A stretch of 64,000 bases of DNA from Xanthobacter sp. YC-JY1 (lineage in GTDB: Bacteria > Pseudomonadota > Alphaproteobacteria > Rhizobiales > Xanthobacteraceae), in contig NZ_CP032674.1 of assembly GCF_021730305.1 (NCBI RefSeq), positions 1 through 64,000 of the forward strand. Direction: 5' to 3'. Under the pieces are notes generated by a model. That model was not told the DNA's origin and did no database searches. It was given only the letters and a program-made list of their open reading frames with translations. Shown here piece after piece: positions 45,860-52,886 of the stretch. Positions within the stretch are counted from its first letter, which is position 1, and every line of letters begins with the position of its first letter. The position numbers and the translations under genes were made by a program.

Positions 45860-45888
45860 CTTGCGGGGGGAGGGGGTGGCCCCCATAT
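45860..45888 (+). promoter_or_regulatory. Sigma-32 (RpoH)-type promoter of the hsp20 operon
   Basis: CTTGCG at 45860-45865, a 17-base spacer and CCATAT at 45883-45888 fit the alphaproteobacterial RpoH consensus (CTTGAA-N17-CCATNT) at 9 of 11 specified positions, both mismatches being in the last two -35 bases. The hsp20 start is about 94 bases downstream. Confidence 0.7.
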
Positions 45889-45981
45889 GCAACTCGTCGG
45901 GATGCCGCAAGGGTCCCGGCGGGCATGGCCGGATAGGTGCATGCCCGGCAATGCAAAGTCGCTTGACGAGGGCTTTGGCCG
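45889..45981 (+). ncRNA. Candidate ROSE-type RNA thermometer in the hsp20 leader
   Basis: The leader folds into at least two hairpins. The upper one has GGGCATG (45921-45927) with CATGCCC (45940-45946). The last one pairs AAAG-T-CGCT (45955-45963) with AGGG-CTTT (45969-45976), so the Shine-Dalgarno GAGGG is buried. It contains a bulged T and a G-G opposition inside the TYGCT block, the hallmark of ROSE elements in front of rhizobial small heat-shock genes. The start codon is 9 bases after the Shine-Dalgarno sequence. Melting at high temperature would free translation. Confidence 0.7.
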
Positions 45982-46407
45982 ATGTCGCGGATGTCTTCCC
46001 TGTCGTCCCCCTTTCTCCTGGGGTTCGACGAGGTCGAGCGGGCGCTCGACCGGGTGGCCAAGAGCGCGGACGGGTATCCTCCCTACAATGTGGAGAGGAT
46101 CGAAGCCGCCGGTGAGCCGCTGCGCCTCAGGATCACCCTGGCGGTGGCGGGCTTCACGGCGGAGCAGCTTGAGGTCGTGCTGGAGGAGAAGGAACTGACC
46201 ATTCGGGGCCGTCAGGTCGAGGATGGACAGGGCCGGATTTTCCTGCACCGGGGGATCGCCGCCCGGCAGTTCCAGCGCACCTTCGTGCTTGCAGAAGGCA
46301 TGAATGTGCTGGGCGCCGAATTGAAGCACGGCCTCCTGTCCGTGGATCTGGTTCGCCCCGAGCCGGCCCGCCACGCCAAGCGAATCGACATCGTCTCCCG
46401 CTCTTGA
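45982..46407 (+). CDS. Small heat-shock protein, Hsp20/IbpA family
   Basis: This ATP-independent holdase keeps denatured proteins soluble. The 141-residue length is typical for class A rhizobial proteins. It starts SSPFLLGFDEVERALDRVAKSADGYPPYNVE, the IbpA-like N-terminus, then the alpha-crystallin core (LRITLAVAGFTAEQLEVVLEE, LTIRGRQ, FLHRGIAARQFQRTFVLAEGMNV) and ends GLLSVDLVRP. Control looks two-level: a sigma-32-type promoter and a ROSE-like leader. DUF1150 follows after 43 bases in the same operon. Confidence 0.96.
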   Translation: MSRMSSLSSPFLLGFDEVERALDRVAKSADGYPPYNVERIEAAGEPLRLRITLAVAGFTAEQLEVVLEEKELTIRGRQVEDGQGRIFLHRGIAARQFQRTFVLAEGMNVLGAELKHGLLSVDLVRPEPARHAKRIDIVSRS

Positions 46408-46450
46408 AGGGGAGGGATGCCGGATTTGCCAGGAGTAGAGGAGTAGATTG

Positions 46451-46717
46451 ATGACCCACGATACCGAACACGAAGCCCTGGCGGATATCACCCCGGAGGC
46501 TCTGGCTGTCTTGGGCGGTGGCGAAATCGCCTATGTGCGCAGCATCAAGTCCGAGGACGTGCCGTCCTTGTTCCCGCAGGCGCCCGAAATCGCGCCCGGC
46601 ATGACGCTGTTCACACTGCACGCCGCCGATGGCACGCCGATCATGCTGACCGACAGCCGCGAGGCCGCGCTGGCCAATGCCATGCAGCACGAACTGGTGA
46701 CCGTCAGCGTCCACTGA
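46451..46717 (+). CDS. DUF1150 family protein
   Basis: The 88-residue protein has the DUF1150 pattern LAVLGGGEIAYVRSIKSEDVPSLFP and LFTLHAADGTPIMLTDSREAALANA. It is a small soluble protein of unknown function that sits behind hsp20 genes across Hyphomicrobiales, suggesting a heat-shock role. ATG 46451 has GAGGAG 7 bases upstream; the TTG three bases earlier is not needed. A strong terminator follows. Confidence 0.93.
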   Translation: MTHDTEHEALADITPEALAVLGGGEIAYVRSIKSEDVPSLFPQAPEIAPGMTLFTLHAADGTPIMLTDSREAALANAMQHELVTVSVH

Positions 46718-46764
46718 CGTCGTGGCGCCGGGCTGCAGCAGCCTAAGAGTTCTGGATTTTTCGG

Positions 46765-46789
46765 CCGGGCCGGCGACGGCCCGGTTTTT
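46765..46789 (+). terminator. Intrinsic terminator of the hsp20-DUF1150 operon
   Basis: CCGGGCC (46765-46771) pairs with GGCCCGG (46778-46784), followed by five T at 46785-46789. Confidence 0.88.
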
Positions 46790-46804
46790 GTTTGCCGCTC
46801 TGGC

Positions 46805-47269
46805 TCAGGCCGCGTTGGAGGCCGAGGCGGCGGTCAGCAGTGTGTGCATCGCGGTGGCATCGCGTGTGGCGCGGAGCTTTTCCACAACATCCGGATCCCG
46901 CAGCATGCGCGCGACCCGCGCCAGCGCCTTCAGGTGATCCGCGCCAGCCGCTTCCGGGGCCAGCAGCAGGAACACGAGGTCCACCGGCGCACCGTCCAGC
47001 GATTCGAAATCGATGGGCTTCTCCAGCCGCGCGAACAGCCCGAACAGCTTGGTGAGACCGGGCAGCTTGCCGTGCGGGATGGCGATGCCGTTGCCGACGC
47101 CGGTCGAGCCGAGGCGCTCGCGCTGAAGCAGGGTGTCGAAGATGTCCCGCTGGTCGCGGCCCATGAGCAGGGCCGCATGGTGGGAGAGTTCCTGCAGGGC
47201 CTGTTTCTTGCTGCTCGCCCGCAGCATCGGAAACACTGCGTCCGGGGCAAGGAGGTCGGCGAGCGGCAT
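46805..47269 (-). CDS. ptsN: PTS IIA-like nitrogen regulatory protein
   Basis: The 154-residue protein is the EIIA(Ntr) of the nitrogen phosphotransferase system. The phosphorylated histidine is His66 in GNGIAIPHGKLPGL, preceded by RERLGSTGVG, and the conserved PVDLVFLLLAPE follows. It receives phosphate from NPr and acts as a regulator (potassium transport, stringent response, sugar-related control), not as a sugar transporter. It lies 394 bases downstream of hpf on the same strand, as in the rpoN-hpf-ptsN neighbourhood, but rpoN itself is not adjacent here. Confidence 0.96.
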   Translation of the reverse strand: MPLADLLAPDAVFPMLRASSKKQALQELSHHAALLMGRDQRDIFDTLLQRERLGSTGVGNGIAIPHGKLPGLTKLFGLFARLEKPIDFESLDGAPVDLVFLLLAPEAAGADHLKALARVARMLRDPDVVEKLRATRDATAMHTLLTAASASNAA

Positions 47270-47663: not shown

Positions 47664-48248
47664 CTAGTGCAGTTCCTCGGAGCCTGGGTCGATCCACCCC
47701 ACATGGCCGTCGGGCCGGCGGTAGACGACGCTGACCCGTCCATGGCCCGCGTGGCGGAAGACGACAACGGGAGCGCCGGTGATGTCGAGCTCCACGACGG
47801 CGTCCGCCACCGAGAGGGTGCGCAGGCGCGTCACCTGTTCCGCGACCACGGTCGGGCTCCAGCCAACCAATTCCTCTTCGGTCTCGGTCTCGGGCGCGGC
47901 GCTGAGAATGTAGCTCTGGGCGGCATGCTCGGCTCCGTTGCCGTTGCCATGCCCGTGACGATCCTTGAGGCGCTGCTTGTAGCGGCGGAGGCGCTTCTCG
48001 ATCTTCTCGACCGCCACGTCGGCGCAGGCATTGGGATCCTGCGCATTGCCGTGCGCCTGGAGGTTCACGCCCGAATCAAGATGAAGCATGCATTCGGAGC
48101 GGTAGCCGGAGCCGTCCCTGGTGACGGTGACGTGCCCTGACCATCCACCGTCGAAGTATTTGCCGAGGACTTCCGAGACCCGCTCGGTCAAACGCTGGCG
48201 AAGAGCTTCGCCGACGTCGAGATTCTTTCCGGACACGCGTAGGGCCAT
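47664..48248 (-). CDS. hpf: Ribosome hibernation promoting factor, long form
   Basis: The 194-residue protein has the N-terminal HPF/YfiA domain (LRVSGKNLDVGEALRQRLTERV, LGKYFDGGWSGHVTV, DPNACADVAVEKIEKRLRRYKQRLKD), which binds the 30S subunit, and a C-terminal dimerisation domain (VVEQVT-like linker, then DAVVELDITGAPVVVFRHAGHGRVSVVYRRPDGHVGWI). Long HPF dimerises 70S ribosomes to 100S in stationary phase. ATG 48248 follows AGGGG. An 8-bp perfect hairpin lies in the leader at 48268-48287. Confidence 0.95.
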   Translation of the reverse strand: MALRVSGKNLDVGEALRQRLTERVSEVLGKYFDGGWSGHVTVTRDGSGYRSECMLHLDSGVNLQAHGNAQDPNACADVAVEKIEKRLRRYKQRLKDRHGHGNGNGAEHAAQSYILSAAPETETEEELVGWSPTVVAEQVTRLRTLSVADAVVELDITGAPVVVFRHAGHGRVSVVYRRPDGHVGWIDPGSEELH

Positions 48249-48267
48249 GCGATTTGATCCCCTATGA

Positions 48268-48287
48268 ACGGTCCCGCGAGGGACCGT
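48268..48287 (-). promoter_or_regulatory. Leader hairpin upstream of hpf
   Basis: ACGGTCCC (48268-48275) pairs perfectly with GGGACCGT (48280-48287) around a four-base loop. It is 20 bases before the hpf start, just upstream of the ribosome-binding site. There is no T run, so it is not a terminator. Confidence 0.55.
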
Positions 48288-48425
48288 CTCATGCATTGCA
48301 AACCGGCCGGCTATCTAAAGAGGTAGGAGTGCTTCGCCGGCATGTCAACGGAAACAGCGGCCGGAAACCGAACGGTTTTTTGGGATGGCCGATCGTTAAC
48401 GAAAGCCGCCGCCTCGGCTCCTCGA

Positions 48426-51917: not shown

Positions 51918-52706
51918 TCACTCGCTGTTACGGCCGCCGAAGAGCTGGAGCAGCATCATGAACATGTTGATGAAGTCCAGGTAGAGCGCGAGCGCGCCCA
52001 TGATGGCCTTCTTGCCCGCCACGGCCACGTCGTCGCCGGCGAAGTACATCTCCTTGATGCGCTGGGTGTCGTAGGCGGTGAGGCCCGCGAACACCAGCAC
52101 GCCCACGACCGACACGATGAACTGAAGCATCGAGGAGCCGAGGAAGATGTTCACCACCGAGGCGATGATGATGCCGAACAGGCCCATCATCAGGAAGGAG
52201 CCCATGCCGGAGAGGTCACGCTGCGTGGTGTAGCCATAGAGGCTCAGCGCGCCGAACGAGGCGGCGGTGATGAAGAACACCCGCACGATGCTCTCGTGGG
52301 TGTACACGAGGAAGATCGTGGACAGCGAGACGCCCACCAGCGCCGCATAGACCCAGAAGGTCAGCTGCGCGGCCGATACGCTCATGCGCTCGATACGGAA
52401 GCTCAGGAAGAAGACCGCCGCCAGAGGCGCGAGCATCACCACCCACTTCAGCGGGCTCACGAACAGCGCGTAGCCGAACTGCGTCAGCATGATGCCGCCG
52501 GCAATGCGGCCGGCAGCCGAGGCCGGGTCGGTGGTCACGGACAGCATGTAAATGCCGAGCGCGGCCGCGCCCGTGATGGCGAGGCCCAGCGCCATGTAAT
52601 TGTACACGCTGAGCATGTACGTCCGCAGCCCTTGGTCGATCGCGGCCTGCGAGCGTGCCACCGACGGGTTGAAACGCCCGGCGACGTTGCGATCATAATC
52701 GGACAT
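51918..52706 (-). CDS. Bax inhibitor-1 / YccA family membrane protein
   Basis: The 262-residue protein has seven hydrophobic segments and the family's C-terminal pair of acidic residues (YDTQRIKEMYFAGDD, then ALYLDFINMFMMLLQLFGGR). The N-terminus (MSDYDRNVAGRFNPSVARSQAAIDQGLRTYMLSVYNYM) is that of alphaproteobacterial BI-1-like proteins. Family members are pH-dependent cation leak channels or protease-regulator partners (YccA with FtsH). It is monocistronic and terminates at 51861. Confidence 0.96.
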   Translation of the reverse strand: MSDYDRNVAGRFNPSVARSQAAIDQGLRTYMLSVYNYMALGLAITGAAALGIYMLSVTTDPASAAGRIAGGIMLTQFGYALFVSPLKWVVMLAPLAAVFFLSFRIERMSVSAAQLTFWVYAALVGVSLSTIFLVYTHESIVRVFFITAASFGALSLYGYTTQRDLSGMGSFLMMGLFGIIIASVVNIFLGSSMLQFIVSVVGVLVFAGLTAYDTQRIKEMYFAGDDVAVAGKKAIMGALALYLDFINMFMMLLQLFGGRNSE

Positions 52707-52886
52707 CGTCGTTCCCCTTGAAGAAATCTCAAACGCCCAAGACCGGCCGAGGCCGAGCCCATGCGTTCGCCGTCAATATGGTGGGTTCGCGATGGGGCGG
52801 CAAGACAAGGTTGGATGAAATTTACGCAAGGTCACTTTACGTCAGGCATACCCTCGGGGCTGCGTTAAGGTATAGTTGCAACCCGC

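Follow-up and report, generated by a model that had tools for sequence, protein, structure and literature searches.

Comparative support for an RpoH-type promoter and a ROSE-like, Shine-Dalgarno-masking leader in front of the Xanthobacter hsp20-DUF1150 operon

The hsp20-DUF1150 locus

Is the small heat-shock gene hsp20 of Xanthobacter sp. YC-JY1 preceded by an RNA thermometer as well as by a heat-shock promoter, and which of the known thermometers does its leader resemble? We analysed positions 1 to 64,000 of contig NZ_CP032674.1 (hereafter the window), part of a 5.39-Mb genome. An earlier note, made from the letters of this stretch, had proposed two-layer heat control of an hsp20-DUF1150 operon. 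The hsp20 gene (45982..46407, plus strand, ATG at 45982) encodes a 141-aa IbpA-like small heat-shock protein (Pfam PF00011, 50.8 bits) that is 99% identical to the Hsp20 of its nearest named relative, X. aminoxidans. The gap 5' of it is 141 nt long and contains a promoter pattern followed by three hairpins (I, II and the Shine-Dalgarno hairpin). We consider it highly probable that this region is the promoter and 5' leader of the operon, with transcription driven by RpoH and a ROSE-like hairpin masking the Shine-Dalgarno sequence.

The second gene encodes a DUF1150 protein (BQ00720 family; PF06620, NF052376) of 88 aa from the ATG at 46451 (46451..46717, plus strand). It lies 43 nt from hsp20 and has the hsp20 promoter in common. 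A pattern scan placed an intrinsic-terminator-like hairpin 3' of it (46763..46791, plus strand, stem 46763-46786), with 2 overlapping sites as against 0.4 in shuffles. Because DUF1150 has a Shine-Dalgarno sequence of its own (AGGAG, 46439-46443) and stands 43 nt apart, the thermometer layer would act on hsp20 directly; DUF1150 would come under it only if translation of the two genes were coupled. The proposal of two-layer control for both genes is narrowed accordingly: both layers have comparative support, as described below, but the thermometer bears directly on hsp20 only. No UYGCU block occurs within the 43-nt gap. A UUGCC at 46426 directly abuts an earlier AGGAG, and part of the intergenic region is paired in the predicted fold.

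DUF1150 was found 3' of hsp20 in 133 of 134 order-level loci and in 46 of 69 class-level loci, as judged from one tblastn query over short stretches; our class-wide statements therefore cover the hsp20 leader and not the gene pair. A literature search for DUF1150 together with Hsp20 found nothing. Convergent with the operon, on the minus strand, are genes for an EIIA-type PTS protein (46805-47269) and an S30AE ribosome-hibernation-type protein (47664-48296).

An RpoH-type promoter conserved in the order

Comparisons were made with 80 non-redundant order-level leaders drawn from 133 oriented loci, in which some places occur twice, as whole genomes and as named contigs. L122 (start codon not found) and L210 (too little leader) were dropped, and ten paralogue loci (L135-L144) were kept outside the counts. 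The class-level loci came from 69 of 182 genomes with a match, taken down the score list and not at random; three of them (L193-L195) belong to the window's own order.

The sigma-32 promoter that had been claimed, CTTGCG-N17-CCATAT (45860..45888, plus strand), could be read directly, with CTTGCG at 45860-45865, a spacer of 17 nt and CCATAT at 45883-45888. Its looser form, CTTG-N18..24-CATAT within 230 nt 5' of hsp20, was present in 77 of the 80 order-level leaders (all except L091, L133 and L134) as against just 15 of 68 class-level leaders (loci L193-L261), which makes this form of the promoter a trait of the order. The thermometer seems to be kept more widely than this promoter form, as its hairpin occurs in most class-level leaders. 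A tighter pattern, CTTGNN{15,20}CCATAT, matched twice in 64 kb where 0.10 matches were expected, and one of the two is the hsp20 promoter. The other (52776-52804, minus strand, CTTG-N17-CCATAT) lies before a 262-aa ORF (51918-52706, minus strand) which we take to resemble the BI-1/YccA family.

The E. coli sigma-32 consensus is given as NNCTTGAA-N(13-18)-CNCCATAT (PMC3669281, excerpt), and the window promoter fits it. The CTTGnn and CCATAT-like hexamers thus stand at the right spacing and are conserved in orthologues, which points to RpoH dependence. Judged by the distance to the -10 element, the likely transcription start is at 45894..45897 (plus strand), so that the mRNA would begin directly 5' of hairpin I.

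Three hairpins and the ROSE hallmark

Hairpin I, CGGGAU[G]CC-GCAA-GGGUCCCG, occupies 45898..45918 (plus strand) and carries a bulged G45904. Hairpin II, GGGCAUG...CAUGCCC (45921..45946, plus strand), is formed by GGGCATG at 45921-45927 and CATGCCC at 45940-45946. The last one, the putative thermometer hairpin CAAAGUC[G]CU-UGACG-AGGGCUUUG, spans 45954..45977 (plus strand), its arms being CAAAGUCGCU (45954-45963) and AGGGCUUUG (45969-45977). It covers the Shine-Dalgarno sequence AGGG (45969..45972, plus strand), which lies 9 nt 5' of the ATG. Opposite stands the anti-Shine-Dalgarno UCGCU (45959..45963, plus strand), a form of the U(U/C)GCU block that is defined as the ROSE hallmark (PMC3669281, PMC11342760, both in excerpt).

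That UCGCU faces AGGG in a last hairpin masking the Shine-Dalgarno sequence was borne out, and compensatory changes were found for it. A bulged T in this hairpin, also claimed, was not: T45959 faces G45972 in a U.G wobble, and at least 7 of 18 distinct Xanthobacter-group rows have U-A here, three rows being offset in that alignment. It is G45961 that stays unpaired in the hallmark. A G.G opposition, as reported for Bradyrhizobium ROSE (G83.G94; excerpt of PMC11342760), stands as the alternative at this position. The leader thus has the structural and positional features by which ROSE-like elements are broadly recognized, namely a U(U/C)GCU in the 3'-proximal hairpin, imperfect pairing to the Shine-Dalgarno sequence, an unpaired G, a place in the 5' leader of a small heat-shock gene (PF00011), and supported upstream hairpins I and II.

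Two relatives, L128 and L218, read CUGCU, the motif of ROSE-G, where the window has UCGCU, so both motif types are found before orthologous hsp20 genes. In L011 and L012 the last 50 nt before hsp20 hold the anti-Shine-Dalgarno block in tandem, in two copies (AUCGCUUGACC / AAGUCGCUUGAUG in L011) with only one Shine-Dalgarno sequence to pair with, an arrangement that would suit two alternative hairpins, each excluding the other.

Compensatory changes in relatives

Alignment A1 comprised 55 of the 80 order-level leaders, those with an anchored hairpin I at no more than 66 nt, and none of them came from Xanthobacter or Aquabacter. The outer pairs of hairpin I were anchored by sequence motifs, not by pairing; alignment A3 took a fixed stretch before the start codon. 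In A1, standard pairs were formed in 97.4% of 874 cells, and 7 of 16 pairs were altered on both sides. None of 500 shuffles attained any of five measures, and slid versions dropped to 25-63%. Double changes fell mostly in hairpin I, where 4 of 7 pairs were altered on both sides; the Shine-Dalgarno hairpin contributed 4 cells in 3 pairs, few because it is nearly invariant in these leaders (CAAAGUCGCUU...GAGGRCUUUG). The aligner had shifted L131 in the last hairpin and L025, L055, L068 and L093 in hairpin I (by one), which lowers the figures.

The near-invariance was overcome in a wider alignment of 97 leaders (68 class-level and 29 order-level), made with MAFFT without structure. Here 88.5% of the cells of the Shine-Dalgarno hairpin were paired, and double-change cells numbered 95 as compared to 42.1 in shuffles (0 of 500 attained this); slid versions gave no more than 32. 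The pair directly outside UCGCU was C-G in 44 leaders, G-C in 42, a wobble in 4 and unpaired in 7. Less striking were the double-change pairs (6, attained by 12 of 500 shuffles) and the further pair types (18, attained by 3 of 500).

Hairpin II is an extra hairpin of the Xanthobacter/Aquabacter group, placed between the two conserved ones; the 55 A1 leaders, which had been chosen for a short distance, have no such hairpin between hairpin I and the last one. Among 18 distinct Xanthobacter-group rows, 5 of its 10 pairs showed a change on both sides and 89.5% of its cells were paired, so the GGGCATG/CATGCCC pairing read from the window is upheld by compensatory changes within the group. In the same rows hairpin I was paired in 100% of cells, with one pair A-U in 9 rows and G-C in 8, and the last hairpin in 91.4%, a figure lowered by L017, L035 and L036, which are offset there.

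A score for the bulged-G hairpin was also computed for single leaders. This score uses pairing, and a shuffle control was applied for that reason. At the order level 76 of 80 leaders scored 6 or more, as did 5.9% of shuffles; at the class level the figures were 57 of 68 and 7.0%. Leader by leader, p was 0.05 or less in 75 of 80 at the order level and in only 42 of 68 at the class level. Zero scores were returned by 3 of 80 and 6 of 68 leaders, respectively; two of the three order-level ones, L026 and L114, have UCGCC and so miss the two inner pairs that the score requires. No anchor was found in L091, L123 and L129.

Compensatory changes thus occur in all three hairpins. Together with the conserved promoter pattern they support both layers, and the comparison shows a Shine-Dalgarno hairpin that is kept by selection. 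The covariance support in related genomes, whose lack would by the earlier note have refuted the proposal, is present and favors the ROSE-like reading.

A covariance model finds the leader where Rfam makes no call

We built a covariance model, R1, from the 55 A1 leaders, without any Xanthobacter or Aquabacter row. Against the window it matched the leader at 46.3 bits (E 2.1e-10). Against the whole 5.39-Mb genome the window leader was the sole credible match (E 1.7e-8), the next one having E 3.45. An hsp20 ortholog (E 1.2e-39 or better) was found in 54 of 61 relatives, and in 45 of these an R1 match at E 0.1 or better lay directly 5' of it, positions being compared by eye. All 13 genomes of the genus with the ortholog had the match. 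Training and search overlapped, since 24 of the 54 relatives gave an A1 row under the same handle; in the other 30 the match was found in 23. Six more matches among the 61 relatives (E 0.016-0.088) lie elsewhere and are probably due to chance.

Across the order, R1 matched at E 0.01 or better in at least 76 of 249 genomes, with one match each; this is a lower bound owing to strict filters and to a model trained mostly near Xanthobacteraceae. At all 30 loci fetched from this search the hsp20 start lay -1 to +3 nt from the match end and DUF1150 was present. A class-level R1 search found matches (E 0.1 or better) in 14 of 289 genomes. We rejected it as a census, as hsp20 came right after the match in just 5 of 13 non-window loci and the model was trained on one order.

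The search with the Rfam ROSE models that the earlier note had proposed gave no call. At gathering cut-offs the whole window returned tRNA only. RF00435 (ROSE), a 94-position model, aligned to the window leader end to end at 21.8 bits, under its gathering cut-off of 45, and RF02523 (ROSE_3) reached 15.9 bits, under its cut-off of 43. None of the 54 orthologous leaders in the 61 relatives passed the RF00435 cut-off under strict filters, and two were visible below it (27.9 and 24.4 bits). Above the cut-off there were 18 places in 12 genomes of these relatives, none before an hsp20 ortholog. In a permissive scan of 20 loci, L017 gave 35.5 bits and L035 gave 34 bits; the other 18 gave nothing at E 1 or better. 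A cut-off scan of 19 non-window loci (13 orthologous, 6 paralogous) called only the paralogue locus L140, with two leaders. The window leader is ROSE-like by its hallmark and plan, but by score it falls outside RF00435.

A canonical RF00435 ROSE exists elsewhere in the same genome (L264 1501-1587, C1:1767216-1767302, 60.5 bits, above the cut-off). It precedes an ORF of about 137 aa with no Pfam or NCBIfam match at E 0.1, which is not an Hsp20 gene. Above-cut-off ROSE elements likewise occur in three relatives of the genus (G002, G009 and G012). The only other hsp20 of the genome (L135) has a ROSE-like leader, CAUGUCGCUUCAAAGGAGGAUAUG (about 900-1002), that scores merely 22.1 bits with RF00435.

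Folding predictions, mechanism and rival readings

In ViennaRNA predictions the isolated hairpin had -8.4 kcal/mol at 37 C, and its Shine-Dalgarno sequence was unpaired with probability 0.05 at 25 C and 0.12 at 42 C. The hairpin of E. coli ibpA, predicted in the same way, had -4.6 kcal/mol and went from 0.00 to 0.03. Temperature folding was therefore rejected as proof of melting, since it fails equally on the E. coli thermometer. As folding energies do not demonstrate melting, the case for the mechanism is built on structural homology and covariation.

By analogy with tested ROSE relatives, the leader would repress at low temperature and melt at high temperature; most likely, an RNA hairpin over the ribosome-binding site opens when warm. 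During heat shock, RNA polymerase with RpoH would raise hsp20-DUF1150 transcription, as the conserved promoter suggests. At growth temperature UC[G]CU would pair with AGGG and keep ribosomes off the hsp20 mRNA. A weak helix would result from G45961, unpaired or facing a G, and from the U.G wobble 45959/45972; it would open on warming and allow hsp20 to be translated. Hairpin I, and in the genus hairpin II, may act upstream as stable folding aids or as 5' protection.

One other possibility is that the leader is chiefly a binding site for Hsp20, which would repress its own translation until heat titrates it onto aggregates, with no melting. E. coli IbpA is reported to repress itself via its 5' UTR and to need Arg93 (R93) for this (PMC10474464, excerpt), and Y32 and R95 of the window Hsp20 match Y34 and R93 of that protein. 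At the order level all 132 proteins carry the Arg motif and 130 the Tyr motif; at the class level each motif is present in 68 of 69. However, the Arg could be retained for chaperone or oligomer reasons, and the second Hsp20 of this genome has the same Tyr and Arg, so these residues are not special to the window leader. The conserved core, moreover, is a Shine-Dalgarno hairpin with the ROSE hallmark, which is temperature-responsive in relatives. We regard self-repression as the chief function as rather unlikely; it may work together with the thermometer, and the Y32/R95 match is a lead to a possible third control layer. A combined reading, in which an ancestral, vertically inherited alpha-proteobacterial thermometer has kept its core helix through C-G/G-C switches and is also a target of its own chaperone through Arg95, strikes us as unlikely on present grounds. 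If it were true, one hairpin would integrate temperature and the level of free chaperone.

It could also be speculated that the regulating fold is a different one, with the start codon buried in a helix between the anti-Shine-Dalgarno and the first codons (AUGUCGCG). Such a switch is predicted for the window when 9-12 coding bases are included (probability of the Shine-Dalgarno hairpin 0.1 to 0.3, or less than 0.1 when just the 3' part is folded), and L057 likewise is predicted to form the Shine-Dalgarno hairpin only rarely when 12 or 30 coding bases are present. This fold varies with the cut point, however: with about 30 coding bases the Shine-Dalgarno hairpin of the window returns to about 0.7. 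Among 77 leaders it exceeded 0.5 at 25 C in 69, 57 and 50 with 3, 12 and 30 coding bases, respectively. The compensatory changes favor the Shine-Dalgarno hairpin, and many relatives read AUGUCUCGUGUU; we therefore hold a start-codon fold to be very unlikely. That this is an ordinary G+C-rich leader, its hairpins due to chance or mere mRNA-stability elements, is hardly credible. The leader is rich in G+C, and its predicted folding does not stand out (z-score -1.53; 15 of 200 shuffles did equally well), but the held-out R1 match (E 1.7e-8) is single in the genome, and covariation exceeds that of shuffled and slid alignments.

The preferred reading, an RpoH-type promoter followed by a ROSE-like thermometer, adds the window leader, with good support, to a known kind of thermometer, in a form that the standard Rfam models miss. 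Most of the class-level leaders that we examined carry the hairpin before the hsp20 ortholog, and Rfam has no model for it. The comparison proves a structured leader that masks the Shine-Dalgarno sequence, with an RpoH-type promoter and a small heat-shock gene, at a site where Rfam calls nothing. This suggests incomplete annotation of thermometers in Alphaproteobacteria. The natural compensatory variants make the role of the unpaired G and its neighboring pair testable.

Comparison with known thermometers

In the part of the literature that was searched, which does not include the main surveys, no statement singled out the lineage of this leader. ROSE elements have been reported 5' of S. meliloti ibpA and of M. 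loti class A small heat-shock genes (PMC2873474, PMC3989490, excerpts), and RpoH dependence has been reported for S. meliloti (PMC3989490, PMC2976971, excerpts). Like hsp20 of the window these are alpha-proteobacterial small heat-shock genes, a likeness that does not imply orthology to the DUF1150-linked gene. ROSE-G (PMC12857270, excerpt) shares with the window an unpaired G facing a Shine-Dalgarno G; it differs in its CUGCU motif, where the window reads UCGCU, and in preceding ABC-transporter genes.

The hspA-type ROSE of Bradyrhizobium (RF00435) is similar in its hairpin I plan with a bulged G, in U(U/C)GCU and in its place before hsp20. In contrast, the window leader has no outer stem past the start codon and, in the alignments, its flanks are CAAAG/CUUUG, not CCAUG/UAUGG. 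The ibpA leader of E. coli is among the best-studied ROSE-like thermometers (PMC3669281, excerpt). E. coli K-12 ibpA also sets UCGCU opposite AGGA before an IbpA gene, with CUCGCUG...CAGGAG in the same place, and CUCGCU...AGGAG recurs in many class-level leaders; the window Hsp20 is 41% identical to E. coli IbpA. On the other hand, the upstream leader sequence of E. coli ibpA is different, and ibpB, not DUF1150, follows.

A further likeness is to the short ROSE-like element of Pseudomonas ibpA (PMC3669281, excerpt), where a sigma-32 promoter and a translational thermometer likewise precede an IbpA gene. The Pseudomonas thermometer has two hairpins, the second of which melts and places U(U/C)GCU over the Shine-Dalgarno sequence (same excerpt). 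The window leader differs in belonging to another bacterial class, in its extra middle hairpin, in its AGGG Shine-Dalgarno sequence and in the DUF1150 gene downstream, whereas the two-hairpin plan of Pseudomonas is that of the Ancylobacter-type relatives of the window.
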